Shown piece by piece: positions 5,301-60,668 of a DNA stretch of 64,000 nt (its first letter is position 1; each line of letters begins with the position of its first letter). The notes under the pieces are model-generated. The model did not search any database. It was not told the DNA's origin and was given only the letters and a program-made list of their open reading frames with translations. Source of the stretch: Apricaphanius iberus (taxonomy: Eukaryota > Chordata > Actinopteri > Cyprinodontiformes > Aphaniidae); assembly GCA_028564705.1 (NCBI GenBank), contig JAPXFQ010000179.1:1-64000 (forward strand). The letters run 5' to 3'. The position numbers and the translations under genes were made by a program.

Positions 5301-5874
5301 TTAAAGGAAAGGTTCTGTTTTTTGTGTGTTTTTTTTTCAACCTGGACCTTATTTTTTTTTATAGCAAATTTAATGTTTTCTTACCCACCCCGATAATTGT
5401 TAAGCCAGTCTGAGCCGATCAGCAGTATTTGTATTCACTTCCTCCATCAGTCTTGAATACGAACCAAAGGTACGAACGCCGGGCCAATTCGGACGTAATA
5501 CAGATTTACGTTGTAGCAGGACTCCCAGTCTGCGTTTTACTACAGCTGACTCATCAAGCTGTTGCGGTGTAAATTTGTATTATGTCCGAATCGGCCCGGA
5601 AGAGAATAGAAAGGCACTTCCGAGGCGTTCGTAAGTCCGCGGGGAACATAAACATGGCAAAATGACTGCGTTTTCGGCAGATTAAACCTTGTTACAAGCA
5701 GCCTTTGTCCTGCCCCTACCACTCCAGTTCTACGGATGTCTGCTGATGGAGGAAGTGAATATAAATACTGCTGAATGGCTCAGACTGGCTACAAAATTCT
5801 CCGGGTGCGTAAAAAAACATAAAATGTGCTAAAATAAGGTCCAGGTTGAAATAAAAAATGAACTATCCCTTTAA
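5301..5874. mobile_element. TTAA-flanked TIR element (Kolobok/piggyBac-like MITE)
   Basis: Flanked by TTAA at 5301-5304 and 5871-5874, the target duplication used by Kolobok and piggyBac transposons. The ends are long inverted repeats: the left reads in through tcaacctggaccttatttt near 5338 and the right reads out through aaaataaggtccaggttga near 5833. Shared blocks continue inward (cagtctgagcc, cagcagtattt, ttcacttcctccatcag) for roughly 150 bp per arm. No transposase is present, so it is non-autonomous. The same end sequence recurs at 41163-42042 and as a fragment at 22470-22500. The TTAA site and family assignment rest on the ends alone. Confidence 0.75.
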
Positions 5875-6029
5875 AGTACCAGATGTCATATTTCCCACAG
5901 ACATGTCCACTTTTCAAGTGAGAGTTTTAAGGTGGTTTTCGTTGTTCATCAGGGAACCACACTTAAGGTCACTGGTGCATTGGATGGAGTACTTTCTCTC
6001 ATCTGACATCCTCCACAAGCTGCTGCCTG

Positions 6030-6975
6030 GCACATTCAACACAAAGTAGGTCAAGGTGCTTTACATAATTTGAGACAAAGAAAAAATAATGCAGCAGTTA
6101 AAAGCATGGAGGTAAAACATTAAGAAGGGGTTAAAACGTGGTTACAGTGTTTAAAAAAGAATCAAAAGAAAAATCATATCAGTTACTGATAGGAAAGTCT
6201 AAATAAATACGTTTTCATTCTAGATTTTAAGAGTTCAGTGTCTCCGCAGTTTTGCATTCATCCAGAAGTTTGTTCCAGATATGAGGAGCTTAGAAACTAA
6301 ATGCTGTTTCTCCATGTTTGGTTCTGGGGACGGTCGGTAAACTAGAGCTGGAGGACCTGAGTGATGGTTTTGTATTGAAATAGCAGTTTGTTAATGTACT
6401 CTGATTGATTTATAGACTAATGGCTACAGAGAGCCAGTGTAAGGACTGTAGAACTGGGGTGATGTGTTTTACTTTCTTGGTTCTAGTGAGAACCCGAGCA
6501 GCAGCGTTCTGGATCAGCTGCAACTTTATGATTGATTTTTTTAGGTAGACCTGTGAAGATACTGTTACAGTAATCAAGGCGGCTAGAGATAAATGGATGG
6601 ATGAGTTTTTCTAGGTCTCCTTGTGTCATCATTCCTTTAATCCTAGAAATGTTCCTCAGGTGATAGAAAGCTGACCTTGTTATTGCCTTTATGTGACCCT
6701 GGAGGTTCTGGTCTGAGTCCATTATTACACCGAGATTTCTGGCCTGGTTGGTAGTTTCTAATTGGACCAAATGAAGCTGTGTACTGATATTTAATCAATC
6801 TTTTTTTGGATCTGAAGAGAAGTAATTCAGATTGAGATATAAAGCTGAGTGTCGTCAGCATAGTTGTGGTAGTTAATATTATTTGTTGGTATTATCTGGC
6901 TTAGTGGGAGCATGTAGAAGCTAAATAAGAGGGCCCTGGGGGACCCCATATATGATTTTTGTTTCTTGTGATGAT
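6030..6975 (-). mobile_element. L2-type LINE remnant (copy 1)
   Basis: Minus-strand remnant of an L2 non-LTR retrotransposon. Its 3' tail is at 6030 (aggtgctttacat), and the reading moves upstream toward 6975 where the [15 protein letters not shown] and GPPGP segment lies. Translation from 6770 down gives a recognisable post-RT block with NQARNLGVIMDSD, HLRNISRIKG and SRLDYCNS, nearly the same as in the copy at 29708-31310. Frames are broken after LPKK, where a deletion shifts the alanine-rich NAAARVL block. It is 5' truncated and lies antisense in the ZNF-A intron. Confidence 0.88.
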
Positions 6976-7299: not shown

Positions 7300-9037
7300 T
7301 GCCCTCATTTATCAGACGTTTGTAGAAACTGTCCTGTATTCTATCCTACGAATGAAATTTAGAATGTTGGTACGAACAATCAAAATTCCGATTTATGAGA
7401 TGTGCGGTGGCCACTTGTACGCACGTCACTCCGCAACCATCTGCTGATAAATCCCACTTGCGCGTACCCAGGTCCTCGTGCCCGTTCAGTCATTGGCATA
7501 CAGAAACGCCCTGAATTAACCATATTTGGTAACAGCACATCATCTGTCACATACATTGAGTCCTTTGGTTCTTGAGCGGGAAAAGGCATTTCAGTGACAC
7601 CGAGGTGAAACATAGGTGGGGCAATAAAAAGGTATTCATGATGAACAGACTTTAAAAAAATTAGATAATGCAAATTAGTTTAACCAACGATAGTTTTCGC
7701 CATCAGCGGTTTCTCTGCTTAATACCACCCAGCATGCAACCGTTATATTTCTGCTGCAGAGCAGACATAAAAAATGCGGCGAATAATTTCATTTGCTAAC
7801 ATTAACTTCTGTGGAAATCCTTAACGTCGTTGAACATATTAAATGATTTAATACTGAACATTGCTGTTTGAATCTATCAGCTCAGGGGAAACCAATAAAA
7901 AAAGATAACTCAGTCTGGGACAGAGGTGAAAGGCAGTAAATGCGGTCTGGACAGGGGCGATGTTCCTGTTGGAAATTAAGGAAAAAAATGGTTTGATATT
8001 AAACAAAATACAATAAAACATCTTTCAGTACATAGCTGGACCAGATCTAAGATCATGTTTGACTCTTTTCGCCATTTGTAATTGGAGACACGGCTTGTGC
8101 TGCTATCAGTACGCAAGGAAAAAAAAGGAAAACCTGCTTCACTGATGAGCAGGACCATTTAGCTGTCGCGGTGCGGTTTGCAAACCTTTGAATAAAAAGG
8201 TGTGACACAATCCCATTAAGCTGAAGCGTTTGGTGTAATAAATAAACAAATAACCGGGAGGGGGGCTCTGCGGCGCAGAGCGCAGGTTGCGGGTGACACG
8301 ATTGCCGTGCACGATCACCCGCAACATTTAATTATGCACTTCTTGGCAAATTTCAAACATTTCCTGAAAGTTTATTGCTAATTCCGTCCACAACTTTTAA
8401 GTAATTTGGTTATAACACAGACAACATGAGCTGAGAGAAAAACTTCTGTCAAAGTAAAACTGTTTTAGTGTTGCAGTTCCTCCGTCCTAACAGTAGATGT
8501 AGGGCTGGGTATCGATTCAAATTTCATGAATAAGAGTTAGAATCGATTATCCCAATTCGATCTGATTTAATCTGATCCAATTCGATATTGATATGGGTCA
8601 ATGCTGTTAAATATTTTTTGAGCTATTATCTTAATTACATGCCTGAAATTCAATATACCTCATCACTAGGTGAACAGTTAACCGGGGGAAACTGTATTTA
8701 CCCTTTTAGACAAAAGACTTAAAATGTCCGTCTGGACTTTTCCTCCTATTTTAGTTGTAAAAAGGGCAAACGGTTCCAGAAAATAAAATAGTATTTTGAA
8801 ATTGTGAATCAATTCGATTTGATTTCTCTAAGGATCGATTCAGAATCGATTTTACGATTTTTTTTTCAACACAGCCCTAAGTAGATGCTGTGCGTAGGAT
8901 CAATCAGAACTGTACTTTTATTTAGGAACATTTCTACGCACTAGTACAAACTGATAAATACCACACAATGCGTAGAATTGTTCCTACGCACGAAATACGC
9001 ACGGATCTGTGCGTAAGTAGGGTTGATAAATGAGCAC
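7300..9037. mobile_element. DNA transposon-like insertion into an L2 element
   Basis: About 1.74 kb sits inside an L2 copy, with flanks that join cleanly (agtagacct at 7291-7299, gcagtctgag at 9041). The ends are inverted: tgccctcatttatcag on the left against gataaatgagcac on the right. A 3-bp CCT is present on both sides (7297-7299 and 9038-9040). The short target duplication and T/G-rich ends suggest a PIF/Harbinger-type element, but no transposase frame survives and the class is a guess. It carries a younger hAT MITE at 8500-8879, so it is the middle layer of a three-deep nest. The rest of the interior has no recognisable coding sequence. Confidence 0.7.
8500..8879. mobile_element. hAT-type MITE with 8-bp TSD
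   Basis: Starts tagggctggg and ends cacagcccta, giving an inverted terminal repeat of tagggctg. It is flanked by a perfect 8-base direct repeat, agtagatg, at 8492-8499 and 8880-8887, as expected for hAT transposition. The subterminal regions carry several aatcgat motifs in both orientations. The 380-bp body has no coding capacity. The perfect target duplication suggests it is one of the younger insertions here. Confidence 0.92.
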
Positions 9038-9040
9038 CCT

Positions 9041-9905
9041 GCAGTCTGAGAGCAAAGTGTTCTGTTAGGAACATATGGAATAATCATATCTCGGATGTAT
9101 GACTGAGCTTGAATATAAAGGAAGGAGGATCTTAAACTGTATTCTGTATTTAACCTGGAGCCAATGGAGAGAAGCTAAAACAGGAGAACTGTGATTTCTC
9201 TTTTTAATATTCATCAGAACTCTTGCTGCAGCATTTTGGATCAACTGAAGGCTTTTAATTGCATTTTGTGGACTTCCTGATAATAAGGAATTGCAGTAGT
9301 CCAGCCTTGAAGTAACAAATGCATGGACTAGTTTCTCTGCATCACTCCTGGACAGGATGTTTCTAATTTTAGCAATATTCCGAAGGTGAAAGAAAGAAAT
9401 CCTAGAAACCTGTTTAATATGAGATTTAAATGTCATGTCTTGGTCAAAAATTACACCGTTTTTCTTTACATTATTACCAGAGGCCAAATTATTGCCATCC
9501 AGGTGAAGTGACTGATTTAGCAGTTTCCTTTTTAAAGGTTCTGGTCCAAAGACAACAACTTCTGTTTTGTCTGAATTTAAAAGCAGAAAATTCAGAGTCA
9601 CCCAGGTTTGTATGTCTTTGAGAAAAGCCTGTACTTTACCTAGCTGGTTGGATTAATCAGAATTTATGGATAAATATAATTGTGTATCATCAGCATAACT
9701 GTGGAAATTTATTCTATGTTGTCTAATTATTTTACCTATTTTAAGCATATAGATAGTAAAGAGAATCGGTCCAAGCACAGAACCCTGTGGTAGTCCACAA
9801 GTAACCCTTTAGTGTGAAGAAGATTTATCATTAAATTGAACAAACTGGAATCTGTTGGACGGATATGATTTAAACCAGCCTAGTTCTGTTCCCTTGATCC
9901 CTACA
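9041..9905 (-). mobile_element. L2-type LINE (second subfamily), RT region
   Basis: The 5' continuation of the element interrupted at 7300. Reading on the minus strand, the catalytic [11 protein letters not shown] motif of the reverse transcriptase is visible about 9670-9710, followed by a frame open from 9601 to 9065 containing LNSDKTEVVVFGPE, HLRNIAKIRN, SRLDYCNS and NAAARVL, the conserved post-RT block of the L2 group. Upstream of YADD the frame is broken, and the element is 5' truncated near 9905. It is antisense within the ZNF-A intron and has no domestication signs. Confidence 0.92.
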
Positions 9906-10560: not shown

Positions 10561-11052
10561 TCATAAATAGTAACTACTCACTCGTATTGACTTTAGACCA
10601 GTGTCTTTAATAACGAATAATTAAAAGTTAGATGCGGGCTAATGCTTCAAGTTCAACAGGTTTCTTTTCCATTAAATAAAAAACAACAAACTTTAAACTA
10701 TCAATATCTAGTGTGTAGACAAACACTGAACATCAGTATCTGTGTGTTCTTGTATGTGGGCATTGTTAAAATGCATAACAGCGGTATGGTGTTATAGTCA
10801 AAATCTCTACCTTTGGCTAAATTTATATAACTTCTACCTTATACCCATTATATTGCCCACTACTTATTTGATTATTTAAAACATTTCGGCGTGTCAGATA
10901 TTTATCCATCTGCACCAGCCAGGAATGCTGTAATACGTACAGTTTTCTTTTTGTAAATTTTTATTTTTCCTTACAAAAATAAATGAAAATCATGTATATG
11001 TCTTGTGCTTTTTGAAATGTTTATATAGAAATACTCTTCTTCCTTCCCTCAG
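10561..11052 (+). other. Distal ZNF-A intron with 3' splice acceptor
   Basis: AT-rich intron sequence ending in a good acceptor: a pyrimidine-rich tract, cttccttccctcag, with AG at 11051-11052. The ZNF-B acceptor at 31601-31603 is nearly identical, which supports both. Confidence 0.6.
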
Positions 11053-12459
11053 GTCTTTAGCGGCATCATGTCTGTTACTACGTGGAAGGTTGTTGAGGAT
11101 CACTTTCTCATAAACGAAGAGAGAAACTCCAATCCTGATCAAAAGATGTCCGACTCTGGAGAATTAAACGAGGAACAGGAGGAACCAGAACCACAGCAGA
11201 AGGAAGAGCTGTTTTCACTAAAGGAGGAGCTCAACGTCTCTACGGCGACCCCTGGTGGTGAGCAGATATTCCACCATGAAGCAGAGCTGAAGGTGGTTCA
11301 GGTTAAGGAGGAACAGGAGGAGCTGAGCAGTGATCAGGTTGGAAAGCTTGTGGTGAAGCGGGAGAGCGACACTTTTACGGTGATTCCACCATATGAGGAA
11401 ATATTCCACAGAGAACCAGAACTTGTAAAGATAGAACCAAAACTAAGACAGGTGACCAAGACAAAAGAGGAACCAGAACCTCGATCACTCAAAGGAGAAC
11501 AAGCTGAACTCTGTGTTTTTCAGGATGGAGGGGAACTTTTAGTGAGGGAGGATTTTGGGTCGTTCATTCAGCCTCATTCTGACGATCAAAAAGACACCAG
11601 TGAACCAGAAACAATCGCGAATCATCTACTGTCTCCAACGCCGCCTGCAGCTGAACACCAACATCAGCAAGGAAGCAACCAGCAAGACTCAGGGTTGAAT
11701 AAAGAGAAAGAGCCGAAGGAGAAGAAACGCAAAAAAAACAGGAAACAAGCTAAGGACATGGACAAGTCTAGCCTAAAAAGGCATAAAAAGAAACTTCCCT
11801 TATGTGATGTATGTGGCAAGTGTTTCACTACTCAGCAAATCTTAACCGTGCACATGAGGACTCACACAGGAGAGAAGCCTTTTGCTTGCAAGCTGTGCGA
11901 TAAATCGTTCATCAACAGCAGCAATCTGATTTGTCACATGCGAACTCACACAGGTGAGAAGCCTTTCTCATGTGTGACCTGTGGGAAAAGTTTCCCCAGG
12001 CAACCTGCCCTGACCGCACACATGAGGATGCACACCGGTGAGAAGCCCTATCCTTGTGAGCTCTGCGAGAAGTCTTACCGGGATCGTAGTAACCTGGTCC
12101 GACACATGAGAGCGCACACGGGCGAAAAGCCCTATGCTTGTAACGCGTGCGGGAAGTCTTACAGTGGCAGTAGTCAGCTGGCTTATCACATCACCACGCA
12201 CACCGGTGAGAAACCTTTCTCATGTCTGACCTGTGGGAAAGCTTTCAACAAGCAGAGCACCTTGACCGTGCACATGAGAACACACACGGGCGAGAAGCCG
12301 TACTCCTGCGCCCTGTGTGACAAATCTTTCCGAGAGAATAATGATTTGACTTGTCACATGAGGACTCACACAGGTGAGAAGCCATATTCCTGTGAATTAT
12401 GTGAGAAAACTTTCAGGTGGAGAAATGTTCTCAATCGACACATGAGAACTCATAGGTGA
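11053..12459 (+). CDS. C2H2 zinc-finger protein ZNF-A, last coding exon
   Basis: Encodes a nuclear C2H2 zinc-finger protein, probably a sequence-specific DNA-binding regulator. The internal ATG at 11068 gives 463 residues; if the micro-exon at 4527 is used, ten residues are added in frame. The first 240 or so residues are acidic and hydrophilic, with repeated EEPEP and KEE(E)QEEL blocks and a basic [11 protein letters not shown] cluster just before the fingers, a likely nuclear localisation signal. Eight adjacent C2H2 fingers with TGEKP linkers fill the rest (about residues 243-463). Contact positions -1,2,3,6 read TQIV, NSNC, RPAA, DSNR, GSQY, KSTV, ENDC, WNVR. No KRAB, SCAN or BTB domain is present. 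All Zn ligands are intact, so it appears functional. The acidic repeat style is common in teleost cluster ZNFs; no orthologue name is justified. Confidence 0.93.
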
Positions 12460-12580: not shown

Positions 12581-13478
12581 GAGTGTTGTCACAGTTACTT
12601 TGAAATAATTATCTGATTACTGACTACTGATTACTCCTTCCAAAAATAACTTGGATACTTTACAGATTACTTTTTAAAAAGTAACTAAGTTAGATAACAA
12701 GTTACTCTATTAGTTACTTTCAGCAGATGCCAGTAACACTCCCCACTGCCTGAACATAAAAATATTAACAGGTTTTGCCAATACTCACTTTATTGGAAGT
12801 GCACTTTAACAGTAAGGCTGGAAATATACTTGCCTTTTAAAGTGCAACTCACCCCAAAACTCACTTTCATTTGCTGATAAATTCTACAAATGAGTGTCTA
12901 ATAGTATTGTGTACATGTCTGGTCATTATTTTTGATATTTCAGTAAAAATATTCAATTTGTACCAAAAACCATTAGTGCCATTCTGGTCAACATTACACT
13001 GCACTTAAATTTGAAACAGGGTTTGCTACCGGCTCAGCCCGGGTTTTTCACGTTGGCTAGGATTTCTGATGACAGCAACCTGCCACAGTGAAGCTCAGTC
13101 GCGGCTACACCTCCGCAGTTAGTTTGCAACAAGCTCAAAACGATACGGCACAAAACGTTCCACCCTTTAGTCATTCCCTCTGAATGAGGTGGGGAGAAAT
13201 ATTCAAGCTCATAATTGCCCCCTTTTGAGGCGATGGAGCTTACGTCGCTATTGCTTTGCAGATTTCTGGTTGTCTGTGCGTGTCCTGCTGTAGAAGCTAC
13301 AGGCAGTTACAGCGCATACAATTATTATAGTGTATTTTTTTATATTGTGAATATTAACTTTTTCTAACATAACTGCATCTTTTATATTTTATTATAAAAT
13401 ATCGTGACTTGTAGGCGTTTTGTTGCACCACTTCAGATCGTCACCTAAATTGCTCGCCAGGTATCAAATTTTTGTTTA

Positions 13479-14384: not shown

Positions 14385-14660
14385 AAACAAAGCAAGGCAA
14401 GGCAAGGCAATTTTATTTCTATAGCACACTTTCAACACAAGGTAATTCAAGGTGCTTTACATGATTCAGTGATAATGAAACCACATGATTACAAAGCATA
14501 TAAGTTTAACAGTAATCAATCAGTAAGAAAAGATATTGTAAGGAACAAATCCACGTAATTAATACACAATCACTTAAAAATAAAGCTAAAAGATAGAATA
14601 AAATATAGAAATTAAAACGACAACAATAAAATAATATAAAGATCAAATGTTTACAAAAAA
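14385..14660 (-). mobile_element. L2 3'-tail copy, heavily 5' truncated
   Basis: Contains three gcaag copies and then caattttatttctatagcac, then cacaaggtaattcaaggtgc, which match the 3' tail of the 29708-31310 L2 for about 150 bp. Only untranslated tail is present, as is usual for dead L2 copies. It ends just before the CACTG terminus at 14667. Confidence 0.85.
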
Positions 14661-14831
14661 GTTCCACACTGTAAAAAAGAAAAAAGTTGAGAAAACTTAA
14701 AAAGAAAAAAGTTGAGAAAACTTAAAAATTTCAAGGCAACATGATGCAAGAGATTTTTGAGTTTTCTCAACTTTTGCTGACCGTTGATTTAATTAAGATT
14801 TGTAAGTTCCGCCAAGTTGGATCTTCTTCTT

Positions 14832-15560
14832 AACCTGATTAAGATAATCTTGTAAGGCTAACAAAGAAATTCTGGTTTTAGTGCCATGAATTTCTGTACT
14901 CGCTAAATGCAGATATTCTTGTTGAACAAACATACAATTATTACTTGAGTGAGTTGAAAATTTACAAATATAAAAATGAACATTTATATATATTAGAAAA
15001 TGCTCAATAAATTAATGTAAAAACAAACCACAACTGATTTTTTTCCTCAAATCTTATTTATTTTGTGGAACAGTCCTTTCAGTATTTCAGAATGCTTTTT
15101 GAAAAGTATTGCCAGTTTCTTTTGAGTGTTTTGAGCTCACCTGCAGAAACAAAGTTTAAATCCACAAAAAAAGAAAGAAAAACTGTCAGCGACATATAGT
15201 CACCCAGATACAAACCATGACAGTCTTATAACAGCTAAACTTAACCAGTTGCACATTAAATAGAACGGTGCTATAAATGATTGGCTATTTAGCCAGACAC
15301 TGACATTTTTACATGGGCATAAGTATGATTAACTAGAGCAGTTAAAAGTTCTTAAAGATGTTACCGTCAATCAACAGGGAACAGATAAAACACCAGTTCT
15401 GTACTGTAGAAAACACTTGAACAAATCTTTTGAAATACTACATGACAAAATCTCCCCATGTGTTAACAGATTCAACATTCAACGTTTCTTCTAATGATTT
15501 ATATAGATTACCTTCATATTGTCCGACCAGGTCAAAATGATCAAAATGCCTTCATTCTGT
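14832..15560. other. Interior of the candidate CACTA unit, no gene
   Basis: AT-rich non-coding sequence between the left subterminal repeats and the polypyrimidine satellite. No frame of note. Confidence 0.4.
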
Positions 15561-15562
15561 TT

Positions 15563-16605
15563 TGACTGTTCCTTCCTCCTCCCCTCTTCCTTTTTTCTTC
15601 CCAACCTCCTTTCCTCCTCCTTTTTTCCTCCCTCCAATCCTCCCAACCTCCTTTCCTCCTCCTTTTTTCCTCTCAGCCTCCTTTCTTCCTCCCTTACTCC
15701 TTACTTCTGACCTCCTTTTCCCTCCCTCCTTTCTTCCTCCTTTTTTCTTCCCAACCTCCTTTCCTCCTCCCTCCCTCCTTTCTTTCCTCCCTTCCTTCCA
15801 ACGTCCTTTCCCCTTCCTTTTTTCTTCCCGACCTCCTTTCCTCCTCCCTTTTTTCCTCCCTTCCTTCCAACCTCCTTTCTTCCTCCCTCCTTTCCTCTCA
15901 GCCTCCTTTCTTCCTCCCTCCCTTCCTTCCAACCTCCTTTCTTCCTCCCTCCTTTCCTCCCTCCCTCCTTTCTTTCCTCCCTTCCTTCCAACCTCCTTTC
16001 CCCTTCCTTTTTTCTTCCCGACCTCCCGACCTCCTTTCCTCTCGACCTCCTTTCTTCCTACATCCTTTCCTCTCGACCTCCTTTCTTCCTCCCTCCTTTC
16101 CTCCCGACCTCCTTTCTTCCTCCCTCCTTTCCTCCCGACCTCCTTTCTTCCTACCTCCTTTCCTCCCAACCTCCTTTCTTCCTCCCTCCTTTCCTTCCGA
16201 CCTCCTTTCTTCCTACCTCCTTTCCTCTCGACCTCCTTTCTTCCTCCCTCCTTTCCTCCCAACCTCCTTTCTTCCTCCCTCCTTTCCTCCCAACCTCCTT
16301 TCTTCCTCCCTCCTTTCCTCCCAACCTCCTTTCTTCCTACCTCCTTTCCTCTCAACCTCCTTTCTTCCTCCCTCCTTTCCTCCCGACCTCCTTTCTTCCT
16401 CCCTCCTTTCCTCCCGACCTCCTTTCTTCCTACCTCCTTTCCTCCTCCCTTTTTTCCTCCCTTCCTCCCAACCTCCTTTCTTCCTTCCTCCCTCCTTTCC
16501 TCCTCCCGACCTCCTTTCTTCCTCCCTCCCTTCCTCCCTCCCTTCCTCCCAACCTCCTTTCTTCCTCCCTCCTTTCCTCCTCCCTTTTTTCCTCGCTTCC
16601 TACAT
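15563..16605. repeat. 1-kb polypyrimidine (CCTCCTTTC)n minisatellite
   Basis: More than 1 kb of almost pure C/T on the plus strand (G/A on the minus), built from variants of cctcctttcttcctccctcc with spacer forms ccaacctc, cgacctc and cagcctc. The repeat block is about 34-36 bp and most regular between 16080 and 16440. Open frames on both strands (348 codons plus, 267 minus) arise only because stop codons need both purines and pyrimidines; they are not genes. Mirror-symmetric polypurine/polypyrimidine DNA can form triplex (H-DNA), and the G-rich strand could form quadruplexes. Confidence 0.95.
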
Positions 16606-16689
16606 TAGAGAAAGTAAAATAGCAGCAATCATGAAAGCATGGAAAAAAATGGCAATTAAGCATAAAATGTGAAAATCCTAAAAAAAAAA

Positions 16690-16850
16690 AAGTAATTGTC
16701 TTTGTAGATTTCAAGAAAGCATATGACGGGGTGCCAATAGAAGAGCTGTGGTTTTACATGAGGCTGTTTGGAGTTGGAAGAGAAGTATGTTAGTGTTACA
16801 GGACATGTATGAGAGTTGTGAGACAGCAGTGAGATCAGATTTTTCAAACA
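16690..16850 (+). mobile_element. LINE reverse-transcriptase fragment (RTE-like)
   Basis: Plus-strand translation gives VFVDFKKAYDGVPIEELWFYM followed by RLFGVGRE, then after a +1 shift VLQDMYESCETAVRS. This is the RT palm motif A region of an RTE-type or related LINE (the D of FVDFKKAYD being catalytic). Only about 50 codons remain. It interrupts or abuts the 3' end of the minus-strand transposase-like gene. Confidence 0.85.
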
Positions 16851-18540
16851 TAAGGCCAATTCCAAAGGAATGACGCCTTCAAAAAGGTCATGCAACACTT
16901 CTGGCGGAAATCCAGTTATTGGATGAAAAAACAGTAGATGTTTGCCCAATGCACACTCTCTTTTGACCCCATTAACACTTTGAAGGTTGTCGGTCTGCCT
17001 AAGGTCTTCCAGAAATGTACTGTGCTGATCAACCCCCCTCAATTGGGAGCCATTAACCTCACTGGTTGCAATTTGGTCCCGACTTATCAAACAAAAGCGA
17101 CAGAACTTGTCAACAGTAAAACATTCACGAAAGCCTGCCAGACCATGTGCCCCAAGGTTATCCGCGCTTACACAATATACAGTGTCCGTAACAAACTGAC
17201 CCACAACTTCCACAAAAATTATATATATATATAATTATATCTTTAATCAGTGGCTCAAAAAACTTTTCATAACCCTATTGTTTGATATCAACACTTTTAC
17301 CTAAGAGAGCAAGCTGAATTGAACTGAGATTCGAACGCAACTGGGTCGGTAAATTTAGAATTACCCAATATACCGCAGTGATCTTATGAAGTTTTCTAGA
17401 GGTGCCCAGTGGGTTACAAACTTCAAAATCATCAATATATAACCCTAAACTGATACACAAGTTTTGCTTTCCCAGTAAATTATTGTCCATGTAGTACTTG
17501 CCTTCTTGAAATGACTTAAAGCGCCCAGGTAAAGATTCTTGATTAAATACAATTTGGTCCAAAAAGTCTCTTTGTCCAAGTAATGTCTCAAGTATCTTAA
17601 AGGCAGATATATAAACTAAAGAGTGTTTATGAGCTGTGTTGTACAGATATTCTGTGGGTTCTATAATAGAAAAGTGCTCTTTGAAATAGATATTCCTTCT
17701 GTGAGCTGTAGATAGGGAACCTTTATCTGAGGTTGTGAAAAGGAGAGCATTGGTTTGAACTATAGTATTATAAATGTCTTGCAAAACAAAATCATTCACT
17801 GCAATTTCATGTTTTGAAAGGATATCTTTGACACAGTTGAGAGTATGAATGCTGGAGAAAGAGAGCCGGTTACACAAATCCTCTACAATCTTTTGCGTTA
17901 CAGCTTGAGAAACATGCAACACTGTTTGGGTACAAAGAAAGAGAGAAGCCAATTTGTGTTCAAGTGTCTTACTATCCACCTCCTCTACAATCTCTTCAGC
18001 GTCATCTGGTCTCGCAATATTATAAGTTGATGTTCCTGCTTCTCTATCAGATTGCTCACTTTCATTTATCTCATCTTCAGGAACACTTCTTGCCACTGTT
18101 CGAAAAATCCACATGTGTACCGTTTTTATGGTTTCGACTTCTGTGAGAACTGAAGGTCGGGCGAATGTTCGTTTTAAATTTACACCTTAAAAAAGGGACA
18201 TTGTACAGTTTCTCAGTTCTTTAAATGATGTCCAAGATGGTTCCAAAAAGTTTTTTCATTGCAAATCTCCTTGAAATTACACAATTCACATTGAAATTTA
18301 GAATTTTTGTGTGTTTTCACTATTGAGTGGGATCTTGAGAGGTGTGATCATAATGCTCCAGGTGTTTTAAATACACATACGCAGTCTGCGTTAATGCAGG
18401 GCCAATGTGCACCTTGTCCGTGATGAAGGCGGAAATGTTTCAGAAGAGTCTCTTGATTGGAGCTTGTGAATCTGAAAAATCTGCACTGCATGAAATCCAC
18501 CCCTGAAACACATGGAACACAATCAGTTTTGGTAAAAGCA
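16850..18540 (-). pseudogene. Decayed C2H2 plus HDLFEGV-domain gene, transposase-like
   Basis: Reading on the minus strand from about 18540, degenerate C2H2 fingers come first (CRFFRFTSSNQETLLKHF; WPCINADCVCVFKTPGAL; FQCELCNFKEICNEKTFWNH; CKFKTNIRPTFSSH), then an acidic linker, a long helical region (18114-17278) and a domain with DNLGAHGLAGF, FTVDKFCRFC and FHPITGFPPEVLHDLFEGVI. I recognise this as a multi-copy family seen in fish and some invertebrates, usually annotated as uncharacterised; the HDLFEGV region resembles Tnp2-like CACTA transposases, but that assignment is inference. Breaks: TGA at 18348-18350, further stop and shift near 18180-18215, TAG at 17275-17277 and a TA-repeat expansion at 17219-17240. 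The 3' end is lost at the RT fragment. Not functional as read. Confidence 0.75.
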
Positions 18541-19134
18541 CTTTTGAAACAGTCCCTATAATTTAAAAAAATAACTAATACAACAATAGGCAATATTTTT
18601 CAGAGTAAATGTGTCATGCATGGGAGAAGATGATACATCGAATGGCCAATATCATCTTCCTAACTTAAAGTGATAGTCTGGACTTTGAAAGAAAAACGAG
18701 AGAGGGACATGAGTTATTACAATTCTTAAAATGTGTAATTCATTTAGAGATCCAGACAATCACTTTAACAGAATGCCCTTGTTATATTTTTTCTTTACCG
18801 TTTTGTTATATCGATATTACTGATCTTAACGACTCATTATCTCCAACGTTGTGAAAGAAACACTTGTAATTACTACAATATTGTTGCAATATTAAAAGTA
18901 TTTGGACAAAAACATTATGATACATTTTAAATGTACCTATAAGAAAAACCTAAAAGTTTAAAGAGACGTTGAAGTGTTACATATTAGACCATTGTGTTAA
19001 ACTTAATGGGATTGATATCTAATATGAAAAAATGTCTAGATAAGAAGTTTTTATCATTAACACCTGCAGCCCTACTTGCCTAAAATCTAATTCTAACAGC
19101 CATTATGGGATAAGATCTCCACATATATATTTAA
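18541..19134. other. Interior of the candidate CACTA unit, no gene
   Basis: AT-rich sequence upstream of the decayed gene on its strand. A possible 3' splice site (gtttcag on the minus strand, near 18506-18512) precedes the first finger, so an upstream exon may have existed, but none is recognisable. Confidence 0.35.
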
Positions 19135-19251
19135 GCAATATCACAAGAGAAGCAGTGCTGTTGTGCCAAATATCCGAACTGGTGTTATTCGGTCGTAGGC
19201 ACACCAGTGCCGATATTCCGCACAACAGCATGACCTCGAGTGTGATATTGC
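19135..19251. mobile_element. 117-bp fold-back (hairpin) MITE
   Basis: The sequence folds on itself: gcaatatcac at 19135 pairs with gtgatattgc ending 19251; gctgttgtgccaaatatc pairs with gatattccgcacaacagc with two mismatches; ctggtgt pairs with acaccag around a loop near 19186-19200. Two unpaired internal loops separate the arms. No coding capacity. This resembles fold-back MITEs of fish, but I cannot name the family. Confidence 0.85.
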
Positions 19252-19639
19252 TTTTATACGACAGTTCTACAAGCAAATTTTATGACTTAATAGTAGCAAC
19301 AGCAGATTATGATTTAAATTTTTTATTTAATCAGTTACTTAGCTCCTCTAACACAAATAGTTCCAACTGGAAGGGAGAAAAAAAAAACTGTTGCCAGGCA
19401 ACACAAACATTTCTTGCATATGAACATTACAAATACAATCATTAGAACTCCTGTATGGCGGAGTGATACTGTTTGTAAAAAGTCCCAGTGCTGATTACTT
19501 GGTCGGAACTAACTGATTTTATATATATATTTGTTTTGTAGCAGATAAATTTAAACTGGCACCCAGTGGGGAGGGATGTTTGCTTCATATATTTCATGTA
19601 AAATTCCTGACATTGTTAGAAGAATGAAATTACATCTGT
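19252..19639. other. No gene recognised
   Basis: AT-rich sequence between the hairpin MITE and the dispersed repeat. An open frame at 19155-19445 plus runs through the hairpin and has no family features. Confidence 0.35.
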
Positions 19640-19900
19640 CCATAGAATAAGGAGGTGTAGCCGAGATCTGATGTAGTCAGTAATGAAAGCCTACGTCAGA
19701 AACCCGAGCTGAGCCGTTAGCAAGTGCAGTGTAATTTTTCAACCAACAGGGGGCACTAAACTAACGTTTTTTGTTACAAAATTAATATTTCCACTAAAAT
19801 TAACTAAAATACATAAAATAATGTACGGACGTGTACATAGTGCTATTATACACTTATTTATACAGTTTAACAATAAAATATGTTGGGGTTTGTAGCAGTT
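19640..19900. repeat. Dispersed repeat, copy 1 (pair at 52750-53020)
   Basis: Shares an ordered series of blocks with 52750-53020: ggaggtgt, gcctacgtcag, aacccgag, gccattagcaag/gccgttagcaag, gcagtg, aattaatatt, actaaaatacataaaataat and acagttta. The order and spacing are kept, so the two are copies of one dispersed element. Class unknown; no terminal repeats located. Confidence 0.65.
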
Positions 19901-20640
19901 TAAACATTACCTAAAATGAACAATGGAGCACGAGATAAACTGTCTATTACAAAAGTTATTGATATTTTCATTGAATTGGCGTACAAGTCTGTCGTACAAC
20001 GACCCATTAAAGTGTCTGCCAGCCCCCGCATAGCTTACATGGGCGGGAATTTGTTTGTTGGTCAAAATTAATATATCTCCACACAAGGATAACGTTAAAA
20101 CCTTTTTAATATTGGGTAATAAGCTTTGCTACGGCAGACGTTCAGCAAAAAAAAAGAAGCCAGTCTAAGATACATTTAACATCATACATTTAGTGAAAAA
20201 GTAACTTTGACTGAATTTCAGACATGTTTAATATTAAAAAGTCAGGGGTCGACTGCGCTGTGCCGACGCTCTGAGCTATTACAGTAGCATAGAAGTGGGT
20301 GAAAGGCTAGAAATGTCGTTAAGCGCTTTTAGAAAAGCCTAATAATATACCAAGTTAGCTTACCTGCTAGGGCAACTGGTCGGCAGCTCCCGCTGAAGTC
20401 CAGAAATTGTCCAACTGCTCCACTCGTACTGCAGACCAGGTCGAAAATCGGTATTGGTCCACATAATTAAATTCCCATCTGACTTTGACCACCTTTGGTC
20501 AAATTTTGGGCCAAGAAAACGTCTACGAACCAGCCTCACACCAGTCAGGTCTACTAAGTAGTCTGTTTGAACCGGTTTGAACTTGTTCAGAGTATGTGCG
20601 CGTCAGTAATCTACGGGGTTTCCCAGTCGTTCCCAACTTG
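19901..20640. other. No gene recognised
   Basis: Non-coding sequence inside the candidate CACTA unit. No recognisable motif apart from short GC-richer patches near 20380-20600. Confidence 0.35.
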
Positions 20641-20831
20641 ACTCAAAAAACGTACTCAAAAGTTGATCATTTTTGTTATGCAAAATAGAAAATCTTAGTT
20701 AAGACAACACTGACAAAAATTTGTTCGGCAGACAAGCTTTTTTAGGTTGTAGGTGGAAAGCTTTTTTCTGAGTTAGTTAAACTTGAAAATTTAAATCAAA
20801 GCAACAATTACAAGTTATCGTTTTTACGGTG

Positions 20832-22440
20832 CACGCCCTTATTTCCATATGTAAATCAGACCGGCACATTTGATTTAAGACGTATTACAACGGATGGCGA
20901 GTTCCACATTACATTGTTATTCATGGCCCTGTCTACATGGAGACGAATCCAGGTGTGGGAGCAAAGATATTTCATGCAATACGTGACTCATCCACAAGGA
21001 GGCGCCGTTTCTAGAAAAAAAATTCCATCTGGAGATTGAGTTTTGCTCCTTGGGGATTTTGACTGCCATGTGGAAGTGACAGCGTTACCTTGAGGGGCAA
21101 GATTTGGAAAAGTGACCTCCCTGATTTGAACCCAATTGGAATTTTGTTGCTGCATTTCTGTGTGAGGCAAAGGACTCCTTCACCATGTTGTAGCACACGG
21201 TGGTTTTAGGTGCGCTTGGTACTAGGTCACCTTAGTTAAAGGAGGATGATCAGTTCATATTTAGCAGAGATTAGGACTGAAATAAAATCCTGAGGATTTT
21301 CAGCCTGTGAAATTGAGTTGGAATCTTGTTAAACTAATTTCTGAATCAACAAGAACTTCCTTTGTTTGGCACAACATGGATGTTTGATATCGGCTTTTGG
21401 CCTGAATCATAATTTCAGTAAAAATTGATGGAATGCAGATGGAGGTCTACTTAACATTCAAGGTTTTCTCAGAAATGTAGAACCCACAAGGTTTATTGTG
21501 AGTTTTGCCAGATAAAAAAAAAATGCTTAAAAAGATTACCGCAGATCTGTCTTTTTTTTTAAATGTTTTAATTTGAAGAGTTTGTTGTACGTTATGTGCA
21601 TGGAATGAAAAATGAATAAAAGTTTTCATTGAAAAAGTAAAAACATATTTTGCCGATAATTTCCAATCTAATTTTTTATGCGCTAATAATCATGTTAGGC
21701 CAGTAACATTGGACATCCCTAGATTTTTTTTTTCTTCTGACTCACTTTACCTACAGTCCCAGACCCACCATGGGCCCTTTTAGCCCCTCTTTATTAACCT
21801 CTTGGATACGCCCCTGCTCAGCAGCACTGAACGTTTAGGAATGGTAGCTTATTAATCATTGTAAAAACTCACAGGAGCTTTTAGAATGATGAGTTTTTTT
21901 TAGAAACTACAGTTTATGTCAGTCACATTGAGACAGTTCTGAAAACTTGCCGCTGGCTGCTGCGGCGTGCGTCACTAATTACAGCTGATTGTTTTCCTCG
22001 TCTGACATATATGAATCCCAGAGGTGACCTACTTTGGATTCCAATCGGCGAATTTCACCAACAGGTGAAGGACTTTCATGTTGGAATGAGGGTTGGCAAG
22101 TATGGAAAAGTGTTCACCAGATACCAACCTTTCGCCAGTGATTTTCTCTGCACCAAATGAGCCATTGATGATCCAGACAGACGGGTTGGGTCTGTGTGTG
22201 TTTGTGTGTGAGAGAGAGACAGACGTGTGAATGACAGAGAGACGAAGAGAGAGCAGGGAAATGCAGCTGAACAAATACGCTGCATGTTTTAAATACCATA
22301 AAAAAGAAAAAACAAACGCAATATTGAGACTTTTTTCTTCTTTTGGTCAGTGTTGAATCTGTTGCGGTCAGGGTTTAATCTTTGGCGCACCGCCACAGAT
22401 TCGTCTATGTGTGGGAAACACTGAGCTCTATGAACAACTT
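20832..22440. other. Intergenic, no gene recognised
   Basis: Runs from the right end of the candidate CACTA unit to the next repeat. It contains a GT/GA-rich microsatellite-like patch at about 22195-22255 and T-runs. Open frames around 20990-21200 and 22030-22300 lack family motifs. Confidence 0.4.
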
Positions 22441-29707: not shown

Positions 29708-31310
29708 GTAAGGCAAGGCCAGGCAATTTTATTTGTATAGCACACTTTCAACACAAGGCAATTCAAGGTGCTTTACATGATTCAGTGATAATGAAACCAC
29801 ATTTTACAAACAAAACATGTAAGTTTAACAGTAATCAATCAGTAAGAAAAGATGATGTAAGGAGCAAATTTATGTAATTAATACACAATCACTTAAAGAA
29901 GAAATAAAAAAGTAAGAATAGAAATTAAACCACAACAATAAAAAATAATTTAAGGAACAAATTTATTCAATTGAAACAGATTAAAACAGATTAAACACAA
30001 TCGGGTAAACAAAACAAAAAGTGATCAGAAAGCGCAATTTAAGATTCAAATGCAGCTCTGAATAGTAGAGTTTTTATCTTTGATTTAAAAGAGCCTAACG
30101 ATTCAGGGTTTTTGCAGTCGTCTGTAAATTTATTCCAGATTTGTGGAGCATAGAAGCTGAAAGCTGCCTCTCCCTGTTTGGTTCTGATTCTAGGGACGAT
30201 TAGTAAGCTAGAGTTGGAGGACCTGAGTGGTCTGCTGGGTTGATATAGTGACACAATATCTTCAACATACTTTGTTGCTAAACCATTTAATGATTTATAA
30301 ACTATTAAAATGATTTTGAAGTCTATTCTCTGAGCTACAGGGAGCCAGTGGAAGGACTTTAGAACTGGGGTGATGTGTTCTAATTTCCTGGTTCTAGTGA
30401 GAACACGAGCAGCAGCGTTCTGGATCAGCTGCAGCTGTCTGATTGCTTTTTTAGGTAGACCTGTGAGGACGCTGTTGCAGTAATCGATCCGACCAAAGAT
30501 AAACGCATGGATCAGTTTTTCTAGGTCCTTCTGTGACATCAGTCCTTTAATCCTAGAAATGTTCCTCAGGTGATAGAAAGCTGACCTTGTTATTGCCTTT
30601 ATGTGACCCTGGAGGTTCAGGTCTGAGTCCATTATTACACCTAGATTACTGGCCTGGTTGGTAGTTTTTAGTTGTATTAGCTGAAGTTGTGTGCTGACTT
30701 TGGATCATTCCTCTTTAGGTCCAAAAATAATCACTTCTCTTTGTTTCTGTTTAGCTGGAGAAAGTTATGGGACATCCAGTCGTTGATTTGTTCAATGCAT
30801 TCATTTACGGTCTGGATAGAATCAAAGTCACCTGGTGACAATGTAATGTATAGCTGTGTGTCGTCTGCATAGTTATGGTAATTTATCTGATTGGCTGCTA
30901 TAATCTTGGTTAGTGGGAGCATATAAATATTGAACAGGAGGGGGCCCAGGATGGAGCCCTGGGGGACCCCACATGTGATTTCTGTTAGTTCTGATGAGAA
31001 ATTTCCGATGGAAACAAAGAAATTCCTATTTTTGAGGTAAGATTCGAACCATTGAAGAGCTGTACCAGTGAGTCCGACCCAGCTTTCTAATCGTTCCAGT
31101 GATATTGTATGATCAGCGGTGTCAAATGCTGCACTGAGGTCCAACAGAACCAACACTGTAGTTTTACCGCTGTCTGTATTTATGCGAATGTCATTGAAAA
31201 GTTTTGTAGTTCTGCATCGCTGTGTTGTCCAGGTTGTTCTGCGTCAGTAGTGGTTCGAGAACTGCTGTTATGAAGGCCTGGGGGAAGACAACCAGAAGAA
31301 CTTCCTGAAA
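29708..31310 (-). mobile_element. L2-type LINE, best preserved copy
   Basis: A 1.6-kb 5'-truncated L2 on the minus strand. The 3' tail at 29708 has gcaaggccaggcaattttat and aaggtgctttacatgattca. From 31156 the RT palm is readable: [13 protein letters not shown] (catalytic D), [13 protein letters not shown], then [11 protein letters not shown] (catalytic DD), LNRNKE. A frame change near 30730 separates this from the block open at 30632-30039: NLQGHIKAITRS, HLRNISRIKG, RIDYCNSVLTGLPKKA, NAAARVL, SFHWLPVAQRIDFKI and a C-terminal LGSFKSKIKTLLFR. The two catalytic motifs are intact but the frame is split and the 5' end is missing. It lies antisense just upstream of the ZNF-B last exon. Confidence 0.95.
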
Positions 31311-31682: not shown

Positions 31683-33044
31683 ATGGAGATGAAGGAGGAA
31701 CCAGAACCGCGGCAGATAACTGAGGCAAAGGAGGAACCAGAACCTCATCCAATCAAAGAAGAACAGTTTGAACTCTGGATCTTTGAAAATGAAGGGCAGC
31801 TTTTAGTAAAGCAGGAGGCCAACAGCTCTGTGGCAACTCCTGCTGCCGAGGAACTCCTCCACTATGGACCAGAACTGCAGCAGACGACGCAGACTAAGGA
31901 GGAACCAGAACTAATCCAGATTAAAGAGGAACATGAGGGTCTCTGCAGTGATCAGGAAGAAGATTGGCTCGCAGTGAAGCGGGAGCCTGAAACCTTTGTG
32001 GTGACTCCTAAAAATGAGAAAAAAGATAACGGTGAAGCGGAACCAAACAAGGACCAGCTCGTCTCTGCGAACCGACCTGAAGATGAGACCCGACATCAGC
32101 AGGGGAGGAACCAGGAAGACTCGGGATCAGGAAGAGATGAAGATCTGCAGCCAGAGAGGAAACATCAGGACACTAGGAATCACACGGACGCCTCACAACT
32201 AGAAGCTTATAGAACTGATTATACCGCATGTGAAGTATGTGGGCGGCGTTTTCGACGCATGAAGTACTTGATATCTCACATGAGAACTCACTCGGCCGAG
32301 AAACCATTTTTATGTCTGACTTGTGGAAGAGGTTTCCCCCGGCAACCTGACCTAACTGTCCACATGAGGACTCACAGTGGCGAGAAGCCTTTCCAGTGTC
32401 TGGTCTGTGGTAAAGGTTTTATCCAGAAAACCACCTTGAGGTATCACTTGAGAACCCACACAGGCGAGAAGCCCTTCCCTTGTCAGCTGTGTGATAAATC
32501 CTTCCGACAGAGAAGTGACTTGGCTTGTCACATGAAAACTCACACGGGAGAGAAACCGCATTGTTGCGAGACGTGTAATAAATCTTTTAGGAAGCGCAGC
32601 GATTTGGCCAACCACATTTTGTCTCACACGGGGGAGATCCCTTTCCCCTGTCCGACTTGTGGAAAAGGTTTCAAACAGCAGTATAAGTTGGCCATGCACA
32701 TGAAGGTTCACACGGGAGAAAAGCCATACAACTGCGAGTCGTGTGAAAAATCCTTCAGACAGCGTTGCGATTTGACCCGCCATCTAAAAACTCACAATCG
32801 GGCGAAGTCGTCCTCCTGTACGGTGTGCGGAAAGCTGCTAAGCGAGTTTAGCAGTATGTCCCGGCACATGAAAACTCACACGGGGGAGAAGACGTATCTC
32901 TGTGAGGTGTGCGATAAATCCTTCGTACAGAGAAGTGACTTGGTCCGTCACATGAGAACTCACAAACATCACAATCACATCACTTTCATGATGGAGGGAA
33001 GTCTCCAAACCTCTTCCGAAACTTTCACTCACACTTCCATCTAA
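31683..33044 (+). CDS. C2H2 zinc-finger protein ZNF-B
   Basis: Encodes a 453-residue nuclear C2H2 zinc-finger protein, paralogue of ZNF-A. The N-terminus opens MEMKEEPEPRQ and repeats the acidic unit KEEPEP-x-IKEE-x-ELW/GLC...LLVKQE/LAVKRE...VATP/VVTP about three times; no KRAB or SCAN. Nine C2H2 fingers follow (from YTACEVCG), most joined by TGEKP linkers. Contact positions -1,2,3,6 read RKYS, RPDV, QTTY, QSDC, KSDN, QYKM, QCDR, ESSR, QSDR. The linker between fingers 7 and 8 is NRAKS rather than TGEKP, and finger 8 has LLSEFSSM in place of the usual Phe. A short tail rich in His, Thr and Ser ends the protein. A longer upstream frame (from 31506) runs through intron and is not used. Probable DNA-binding regulator; target unknown. 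Confidence 0.93.
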   Translation: MEMKEEPEPRQITEAKEEPEPHPIKEEQFELWIFENEGQLLVKQEANSSVATPAAEELLHYGPELQQTTQTKEEPELIQIKEEHEGLCSDQEEDWLAVKREPETFVVTPKNEKKDNGEAEPNKDQLVSANRPEDETRHQQGRNQEDSGSGRDEDLQPERKHQDTRNHTDASQLEAYRTDYTACEVCGRRFRRMKYLISHMRTHSAEKPFLCLTCGRGFPRQPDLTVHMRTHSGEKPFQCLVCGKGFIQKTTLRYHLRTHTGEKPFPCQLCDKSFRQRSDLACHMKTHTGEKPHCCETCNKSFRKRSDLANHILSHTGEIPFPCPTCGKGFKQQYKLAMHMKVHTGEKPYNCESCEKSFRQRCDLTRHLKTHNRAKSSSCTVCGKLLSEFSSMSRHMKTHTGEKTYLCEVCDKSFVQRSDLVRHMRTHKHHNHITFMMEGSLQTSSETFTHTSI

Positions 33045-41158: not shown

Positions 41159-42046
41159 TTAAAGGGGAATTTCGAGTTTTTTTTTTAACCTGGACCTTAT
41201 TTATAGCATGCATTACATTCATTTACTCACCCAGACAAGTTTGGAGCCACATGGAGCCCTTTGAGAGAAGTTTAAATCCGTACTGATCCGCAAGTAATGT
41301 AAGTCACTGGGGGCACACAAAGTGCCTCCTTTAAATAATGCATTATCTGCCTCAAAACTCCTTCATTTAACCAATATTTCCTTATGTAGAGCTACTACAA
41401 TTCCCCCTGAAGTTCAGGGCCTCTCAGAGGTGCTTCTTCGTTGCCTGCTGGGGTGTTTTGCAGGCCTTTTATCCAACTACACGAACATGCAACTCCAATT
41501 ACAACCGTCTGCCATGACCGCTGTAGTCTGAACAGGACTTTCACTCTGCGCTCTACGGCGGCACACGATTAGACAGAACTTGCAACTACAATCAACAACA
41601 TGGTTTGCGCTTGTGTGTTGCCAAATTGCACAAACAAAATGATCAAGCGGACTAAGATGGTCTTATAGCACAGAGTAAAAGTCCTGCTCGGACACAAACT
41701 GTCATGAGGCACTGCAGTCATGTCACTGAAACGGCAGCTTATTGTAAGTTTGAATTAATTCCAGTAAATAACACTGGAGGAACCCAAAGAAGCACTTCCG
41801 AGACGCCCCGAACAACAAAACATTGGTTAAATGAAGGAGTTTCGTGGCAAAGAATTCCTTATTTAGAGGCAACTCTTTATGTGCCCCCATTGACTCCCAT
41901 TATATGGACATACGCTGATTGCGACTAAACTTCTCTCAAAGGACTCTACCTGGCTCCAAACTTGTCTGGGTGAATAAATGAACGTAATGCATGCTTTAAA
42001 TAAGGTCCGGGTTGAAGAAAATAACCCAAACCGTCCCTTGCCTTAA
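41159..42046. mobile_element. TTAA-flanked TIR element, second copy
   Basis: TTAA occurs at 41159-41162 and 42043-42046. The long inverted arms share aacctggaccttattta/aataaggtccgggtt, gcatgcattac/gtaatgcatgc, acccagacaagtttggagcc and its inverse, and ctttgagagaagttta and its inverse, for about 180 bp per arm. No transposase. The outer end matches the element at 5301-5874, although the interiors differ. Probable Kolobok or piggyBac-type non-autonomous element. Confidence 0.85.
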
Positions 42047-46199: not shown

Positions 46200-46800
46200 A
46201 AAGTTTTTGAAACACATGTCCTTTTTTTTATCCTTCCATTTCATAATGATGCCTTTATTGGAACTGAACTGTTAAAAAAATCTAAATATAGGTATGATAG
46301 TTTTGTAATAATGAAAAGAACACTTTCCACATTTCTCTAGAATTTATTGTTTTATTGAACAAATCCAAAAAGACAGAACATCAGACATTTATGTTTCTGT
46401 CTGAATCTAAATAACTGAGAAGAAAACAGCATCAGTTCTAAGTTGATGTTAGTTTCAGATTTCTTCTCTGCATCACAATAAAGAAAACAGAAGAAAGTTC
46501 AGTTCACTTCAATCTCAGCTGATGGAAACCAAAACATTTGTTCTGCAGAACAGTGGAAGAGAAACCAGAACATCCAGATACATCAATACAAATATTAAAG
46601 CTGAACTATTAGAGCCCAGAGAAATATTTCTGTGTCATATAAGAATGAAAGAAAACATCAGCAGTGAAATCCTTTCTGGCTCCTGGAACACAGACACAGA
46701 GAACTACATTTAAAGCAGAAAAATAAAGAAGAAGAGAACAGCAGAACAGAGACACCAGAACCATGAATCCTGATCAACAATCAGAGAGGAGAGAAGAAAT
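46200..46800 (-). other. finTRIM 3' untranslated region
   Basis: Downstream of the finTRIM stop on the minus strand. It is matched almost base for base near the gene, and more loosely further out, by 61850-62327 beside the pseudogene copy, which shows that the duplication included the 3' flank. The sequence contains tttattgttttattgaac (AATAAA on the minus strand near 46345-46355), a plausible polyadenylation signal. Confidence 0.6.
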
Positions 46801-52749: not shown

Positions 52750-53020
52750 GCACCTCGCTACGGAGGTGTGGCCAATACCGCTCATGTTATATACCCCACC
52801 ACGGCCGGACTGCTGACGTCACTATTCCAAGCCTACGTCAGTAACCCGAGATTAGCCATTAGCAAGGCAGGATTTGAATTCTAGTTAATTGCAGTGCAGT
52901 GTATTCGTATAACCACTTATTAACCAATTAATATTTTCACTAAAATGTACTAAAATACATAAAATAATTACTGGAAATGTAGATATTGTTATTATAGACT
53001 CAATTATACAGTTTATCAAC
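52750..53020. repeat. Dispersed repeat, copy 2 (pair at 19640-19900)
   Basis: Counterpart of 19640-19900 with the blocks in the same order. The two share aagcctacgtcagtaacccg-type sequence and actaaaatacataaaataat. Better preserved in the AT-rich half. Confidence 0.65.
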
Positions 53021-60501: not shown

Positions 60502-60665
60502 CAAGTGATAAAAAGCTGACCTTGTTATTACCTTTATGTGACCCTGGAAGTTCAGGTCTGAGTCAAATATTACACCTAGATTTCAGGTCTGATCGGTAGA
60601 TTCTAGCTGGATTAACTGAAGCTTTGGCTGACTCTTGATCGCTCCTCTTTAGGTCCAAAGATAAT
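60502..60665 (-). mobile_element. L2 LINE fragment next to Gypsy remnant
   Basis: Contains agctgaccttgttattacc, gtgaccctggaagttcaggt and gtccaaagataattac, matching 30580-30735 of the best L2 copy. It is internal L2 sequence on the minus strand. Its distal part (from 60616) is the left boundary of the duplicated unit that reappears at 63393. Confidence 0.85.
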
Positions 60666-60668
60666 TAC

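Follow-up and report, generated by a model that had tools for sequence, protein, structure and literature searches.

An internally deleted CACTA/EnSpm-type transposon in Apricaphanius iberus and its two-gene relatives with a predicted RAG1/Transib-type transposase core

The first 64,000 nucleotides of contig JAPXFQ010000179.1 of the fish Apricaphanius iberus (assembly GCA_028564705.1; this whole stretch is called the window here) contain a gene with C2H2 zinc fingers followed by DNLGAHG and FPPEVLHDLFEGV motifs, which lies between short inverted CACTG/CACCG termini. Do the gene and the termini belong together, and is the gene family then a CACTA/EnSpm-type transposase, as a sequence-only reading of the window had proposed? 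The region 14667-20831 represents a 9.5-kb CACTA/EnSpm-type transposon that has lost part of its interior. We hold with high confidence that it is the decayed remnant of a fish cut-and-paste element of the CMCT clade whose intact members carry two genes. The proposed identity of the family is supported by shared ends, 2-bp target-site duplications, weak Tnp2 homology and a predicted RNase H fold. Intact elements are 9.1-9.9 kb long (representatives of 9,087 to 9,928 bp) and have short CAC-type termini flanked by 2-bp duplications of pyrimidine-purine dinucleotides.

Both inverted termini are present where they had been placed, CACTGTAAAAA at 14667-14677 on the plus strand and CACCGTAAAAA at 20821-20831 on the minus strand, with CA on both flanks. 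No other exact CACYGTAAAAA site occurs in the window. Under a first-order Markov model 0.13 sites of this kind are expected in 64 kb, and an inward-facing pair at most 8 kb apart arose in none of 400 simulations. With one mismatch allowed, the number of matches (7 against a mean of 4.88; 24 of 100 shuffles reach 7) is at chance level.

Copies elsewhere in the same genome (1.195 Gb) show where the element begins and ends. At least 150 scored matches to a 154-residue piece of the first open reading frame (ORF1) were found among 207 candidates, so the family is indeed multi-copy. Together with the window copy we compared four of the subfamilies, S1 (C50 and C1394), S2, S3 and S5, in a family that also includes S4 and others. 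The nearest copies besides that of the window, C50 and C1394, have in common a 9.5-kb block that is 99.7% identical, outside of which their sequences differ. In both, the block runs from CACCGTAAAAACGGTAAC to CTTTTTTACAGTG with TA on either side (9,496 and 9,497 bp). Positions 1-589 of the window element correspond to 1-585 of this block (70% identity) and positions 5881-6134 to 9224-9491 (80%). The S2 terminus is CACTCTAAG, with duplications of TG (C301), TG (C373), CA (C1353) and TA (C677); three further S2 copies were dropped, two whose extracted piece showed no 3' end (C1677, C1368) and one with no 5' end (C901). S3 has termini CACTATAAACCC/CACTGTAAACCC and a TA duplication in C331 and C874, S5 has CACTGTAACG/CACTGTTAG and a TA duplication in C716 and C454. 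The terminus types are thus CACCG/CACTG (S1 and the window), CACTC (S2), CACTA/CACTG (S3) and CACTG (S5), and a 2-bp duplication, within the 2-3 bp typical of CACTA/EnSpm elements, flanks all 11 copies with two ends. In gene orientation it is TA in seven, TG in three and CA in one; the window copy, with CA on the plus strand, counts among those with TG. Comparing the flanks of other copies, the check that had been suggested for the termini, therefore bears them out in this genome. Both S5 copies (L064-L067) also have TGC ahead of the TA duplication in the 5' flank, which may be a target preference or a slightly longer element end. On the window's own contig, an ORF1 match with a match to the second gene behind it lies at C101:82621-85224, about 19 kb past the right end of the window.

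These copies also decide against a host C2H2 gene family that merely lies between chance or unrelated CACTG-like sequences. Such an explanation could draw on the abundance of single CACTG sites in the window (63 on the plus and 94 on the minus strand), on the different inner sequence at the two ends and on the lack of any Pfam match in the window's own ORF1 pieces. It is contradicted because the boundaries are common to independent copies, which begin and end at the same termini, each in different flanking sequence and each with a 2-bp duplication. The number of genome matches and the RAG1-like predicted fold (see below) speak against it as well, and we consider it scarcely credible.

The gene itself, with its C2H2 fingers and both motifs, was found as described, as four minus-strand pieces running from 18491 to 16830 (to 16746 with homologue P0003). 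It contains three in-frame stops and three frame changes and matches residues 1-554 of homologue P0002 (878 residues), whose numbering is used throughout, at 72-77% identity. The reading as a transposase-type family holds, but the copy in the window is broken and derives from a longer element by deletion (Table 1). The deletion removed the C-terminal third of the transposase, including H(3)H, E698 and a BAH-like domain, together with the whole second gene (ORF2); ORF2 queries gave no match to the window element. Of the conserved residues, D, D and C(2)C are still present in the window copy; H(3)H and E are not. An intact element carries the transposase gene as proposed, and in addition two parts that cannot be seen in the window copy, a BAH-like domain and a second gene. 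The repeated subterminal motif gttgagaaaactt is real, but it arises from a 25-bp tandem duplication and a hairpin (14707-14775) within the 3' subterminal region of the window element. At the related full-length 3' end the motif has diverged and the tandem duplication is absent. A search of viral contigs with the subterminal-motif DNA pattern gave four stretches (L001-L004).

Table 1. Coordinates of the window element and its parts (window positions; strand "." where none applies)
Feature	Position	Strand	Basis
Whole element, gene orientation, 6165 bp	14667..20831	-	Ends common to full-length copies C50 and C1394; length, flanks
Target-site duplication, left: CA	14665..14666	+	Sequence; 2-bp duplications in 11/11 two-ended copies
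Terminal inverted repeat, element 3' end: CACTGTAAAAAAG	14667..14679	+	11/13 identical to opposite end; terminus also in C50 and C1394
Subterminal repeats: 25-bp unit x2.2 (14674-14728) and hairpin with 26-nt arms (14707-14732, 14750-14775)	14674..14775	.	Related sequence at 3' end of full-length copy
Pyrimidine-rich minisatellite	15575..16601	.	Related to array of full-length copy (about 8159-9264), 65-70% identity, low-complexity sequence
Internal deletion zone	16578..16830	.	Alignment: full-length copy matched to base 3523 and again from about base 8160
ORF1 piece 4, other frame: second putative catalytic Asp, CRFC, HDLFEGV	16830..17219	-	76.9% identical to P0002 residues 425-554
Sites in piece 4: second Asp; CRFC; HDLFEGV His; HDLFEGV Glu	17160-17162; 17091-17102; 16890-16892; 16878-16880	-	
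ORF1 piece 3, other frame: middle part, first putative catalytic Asp, one in-frame stop	17236..18105	-	72.4% identical to P0002 residues 129-417
First putative catalytic Asp codon (= D352 of P0002)	17431-17433	-	ORF1 piece 3
ORF1 piece 2, other frame: fourth C2H2 finger	18104..18202	-	75.8% identical to P0002 residues 97-129
ORF1 piece 1: transposase start, zinc-finger region, two in-frame stops	18186..18491	-	73.5% identical to P0002 residues 1-102
Terminal inverted repeat, element 5' end: CACCGTAAAAACG	20819..20831	-	Terminus also in C50 and C1394
Target-site duplication, right: CA	20832..20833	+	Sequence

Of 3,847 candidates from a homology search with ORF1, 385 proteins reached E <= 1e-3. 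Among the best 120 of these, every named organism is a ray-finned fish and the names given are mostly hypothetical or uncharacterized. No relatives were found in viral contigs (queries P0002 and A2), in genome contigs (query A2) or on plasmids. In a Pfam scan of 40 relatives (E <= 1), Transposase_21 matched 16 (best 3e-5), DUF4218 matched 10 (best 0.0062) and Plavaka (PF18759) matched 5 (best 0.0022). The suggested comparison with Tnp2 profiles thus found weak Transposase_21 homology in the relatives, but none in the window pieces and no score above the cut-off. A single-sequence search of the PDB with the transposase core gave two weak protein A matches; a profile search gave 90 sequences, and the best 60 are zinc-finger or similar chains aligned at the finger region.

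Structure prediction, which had been proposed as a check for a DDE fold, gave a confident model with a RAG1/Transib-type RNase H core and an inserted zinc-binding domain. Its best fold matches are RAG1, BbRAGL and HzTransib, with residues 176-737 as the core. Among 76 aligned relatives the residues D, D, C(2)C, H(3-4)H and E follow the order of the CMCT clade; D352, D444, C464, H674, H678 and E698 occur without exception, C467 in 75. Successive residues are 92, 20, 3, 207, 4 and 20 positions apart. In mouse RAG1 the corresponding residues are given as D600, D708, C727, C730, H937, H942 and E962 (PMC4914335), from which we calculate steps of 108, 19, 3, 207, 5 and 20. C464/C467 and H674/H678 would together form a zinc site.

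Several results weigh against this reading or parts of it. The first concerns the catalytic glutamate. The HDLFEGV motif is present and conserved as claimed (H534 in 75 and E538 in 76 of the 76 relatives), which makes E538 as invariant as E698, and the fold search gives aligned ranges without residue pairs. Conservation alone is not decisive here; E698, in RFEAKH, is the more likely catalytic residue, and the catalytic Glu is then probably not the one in HDLFEGV. Secondly, the S1, S3 and S5 copies all have TA, which alone could belong to the element, and further bases ahead of the TA are common to the copies in S3 (one) and S5 (three). Only S2 (TG, TG, CA, TA) and the window copy (CA) tell a duplication from a TA at the element end. 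Since TG and CA duplications occur in these other copies, the TA cannot simply be counted as element sequence. Thirdly, homology is weak. The top Transposase_21 score (P0033, 26.7 bits, E 3.8e-6) is below the curated cut-off of 28.6, no transposase chain is among the best 60 of the 90 PDB profile matches, and the failure of the window's own pieces to match Pfam belongs here as well. Lastly, no transposition event was observed.

To which lineage does the element belong? Elements of the CACTA/EnSpm type are already known in fish, for example EnSpm-N6_DR of zebrafish (PMC3485254). As described for CACTA/EnSpm (CMC; CMCT clade) in PMC12730594, shared traits are CAC-type termini, 2-bp duplications and two open frames, together with weak Transposase_21 and DUF4218 homology and the D-D-C(2)C-H(3-4)H-E signature. 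Plant CACTA elements are reported to encode TAD-Transposase_21-DUF4218-DUF4216 in ORF1 and Transposase_24 and/or Peptidase_C48 in ORF2 (PMC8978399), in contrast to the four C2H2 fingers, BAH-like domain and SAMD3-like ORF2 of the fish element. The BAH-like domain might yet be a counterpart of DUF4216. The alternative that it is a cut-and-paste transposon from a different CMCT or RAG-related lineage (Transib/RAG-like, Plavaka or SmTRC-type TRC) and not CACTA/EnSpm in the narrow sense has to be weighed, since RAG1, BbRAGL and HzTransib are the top fold matches, one relative (P0065) scores above the Pfam Plavaka cut-off (28.0 against 26.3) and zebrafish elements were earlier named TRC (PMC1636069). 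The fold match cannot choose between lineages, because there is no CACTA/EnSpm structure among the fold-search matches listed. The predicted core fold and the spacing of putative catalytic and zinc residues are RAG1/BbRAGL/Transib-like, but these proteins gave no sequence match among the PDB matches listed, and the C2H2 fingers and BAH-like domain set the fish element apart; no RAG2-like gene was seen. Transib and RAG make 5-bp duplications, in contrast to the 2 bp in 11 of 11 two-ended copies. The termini described for Plavaka, TGT..ACA or CATCA..TGATG (PMC12730594), differ from the CACTA, CACTG, CACTC or CACCG ends of the four fish subfamilies. TRC elements, with their Transposase_21 domain, resemble ours in its weak Transposase_21 homology, in CXXC and in 2-bp duplications, but the three with ends known in PMC1636069 start with CCC, not CAC; this separation is by description, not by sequences, and the ends of the reported zebrafish member were not characterised in that account. 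Zisupton (KDZ) was rejected for its 8-bp duplication (PMC12730594), against 2 bp here. We regard another lineage as distinctly unlikely and retain the CACTA/EnSpm assignment, under which a fish family mostly labelled uncharacterized in databases becomes a transposase with defined ends. The predicted structure supports the motif-based grouping of CACTA enzymes with RAG1 and Transib. In the literature searched, the sole match for CACTA, RAG1 and AlphaFold together applied AlphaFold to TET/JBP proteins.

In open copies a second frame (ORF2) follows on the same strand, with 332 codons in C50 and 478 in C301; beyond it, S1, S2 and S3 contain sequence that corresponds to the C-terminal portion of ORF2 homologues. 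Six of the best 120 of 185 homologues (E <= 1e-3) are named SAMD3 (sterile alpha motif domain-containing protein 3) or SAMD3-like, names that are NCBI labels on fish homologues only, with no tetrapod SAMD3 in the comparison. A PB1 match is weak at the N terminus of the S2 ORF2 (E 0.00099; 19.5 against a cut-off of 23.6 bits) and absent from that of S1; PF00564 is precomputed on five of the best 120. The 79 ORF2 matches in the genome fall into 73 loci, of which 55 lie at most 8 kb downstream of an ORF1 match on the same strand (median gap 1,284 bp; about 0.0005 expected per locus), while a single locus has an opposite-strand ORF1 neighbour within 9 kb. The frame occurs in all four subfamilies, very diverged in S5 (22%, E 2.4e-5). 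Since its place and orientation are constant in all four, including the diverged S5, this suggests that ORF2 is an old, retained part of the element. A captured SAMD3-like host gene, a passenger without a part in transposition, would account for the host-gene names and for the 18 of 73 loci that have no ORF1 match in reach. It fits poorly with the constant position across diverged subfamilies, and we consider it unlikely, though not negligible. Among the 18, C891:297138-298097 and C1260:843280-844215 could represent a SAMD3-like gene of the host, or else elements whose ORF1 is more distant. In C874:60539-62944 (L013, L059) the ORF1 and ORF2 matches share one open frame of 1,243 codons; in C331 the frames have 897 and 370.

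ORF1 of an intact element would thus encode a transposase of about 880 residues with four C2H2 fingers, a RAG1/Transib-like core and a C-terminal domain that is BAH-like in the structure model and may engage chromatin. A small barrel that merely resembles BAH and reads no chromatin is the less probable interpretation, yet one to be taken seriously. By analogy with RAG1 and Transib, and from general knowledge, transposase molecules would bind both element ends, for which the fingers are the natural part, and D352, D444 and E698 would cut. Joining of the element to its target, at pyrimidine-purine dinucleotides, would then take place with a stagger of 2 bp. The BAH-like domain might anchor the complex on nucleosomes, and the SAMD3-like ORF2 protein, with a possible PB1 domain in some members, might be an accessory factor that could multimerise. 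More tentatively, and with well under even confidence, we propose that fish harbour an old two-gene CACTA lineage with a RAG1-type core, end-binding fingers, a BAH chromatin reader and a SAMD3-like accessory, in which vertebrate SAMD3 and ORF2 would have a common origin, with SAMD3 as a transposon gene that was tamed (or as the donor of ORF2), and insertion would be steered by chromatin state through the BAH domain, as an intramolecular counterpart of the histone-reading PHD finger of RAG2. The combination makes insertion-site choice of animal CACTA elements and the origin of vertebrate SAMD3 testable. In the literature searched, no joint treatment of BAH domain, CACTA and transposase was found. 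The matches listed contained no link of SAMD3 with PB1 domain, EnSpm or CACTA transposon; those for SAMD3 and transposon seemed unrelated, judged by titles, and those for SAMD3 as a domesticated transposable element had it only in expression work on human endogenous retroviruses (HERV).

Other repeats occur in and around the element. Its leader contains a hairpin with 58-nt arms (78% complementary) and a repeat found also at 52810-53022 and 12875-13077; both (19128-19258, 19668-19876) are probably nested insertions. A repeat of about 260 bp (14394-14656 and 29710-29970, 85% identical) stops about 10 bp short of the left terminus, and its second copy continues into different sequence. C2H2 zinc-finger coding stretches with 84-bp repeats, at 11029-12459 (476 codons) and about 32277-32964, are unrelated to the transposase apart from weak finger matches. 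Direct repeats lie about 15.5 kb apart (46566-47747 and 62093-63295, pieces 87-98%) and 2.8 kb apart (60607-60906 and 63384-63683, 98%). Inverted repeats at 41170-42030 (105-nt arms, 87%) and 5356-5837 (95-nt arms, 85%) look like foldback elements.

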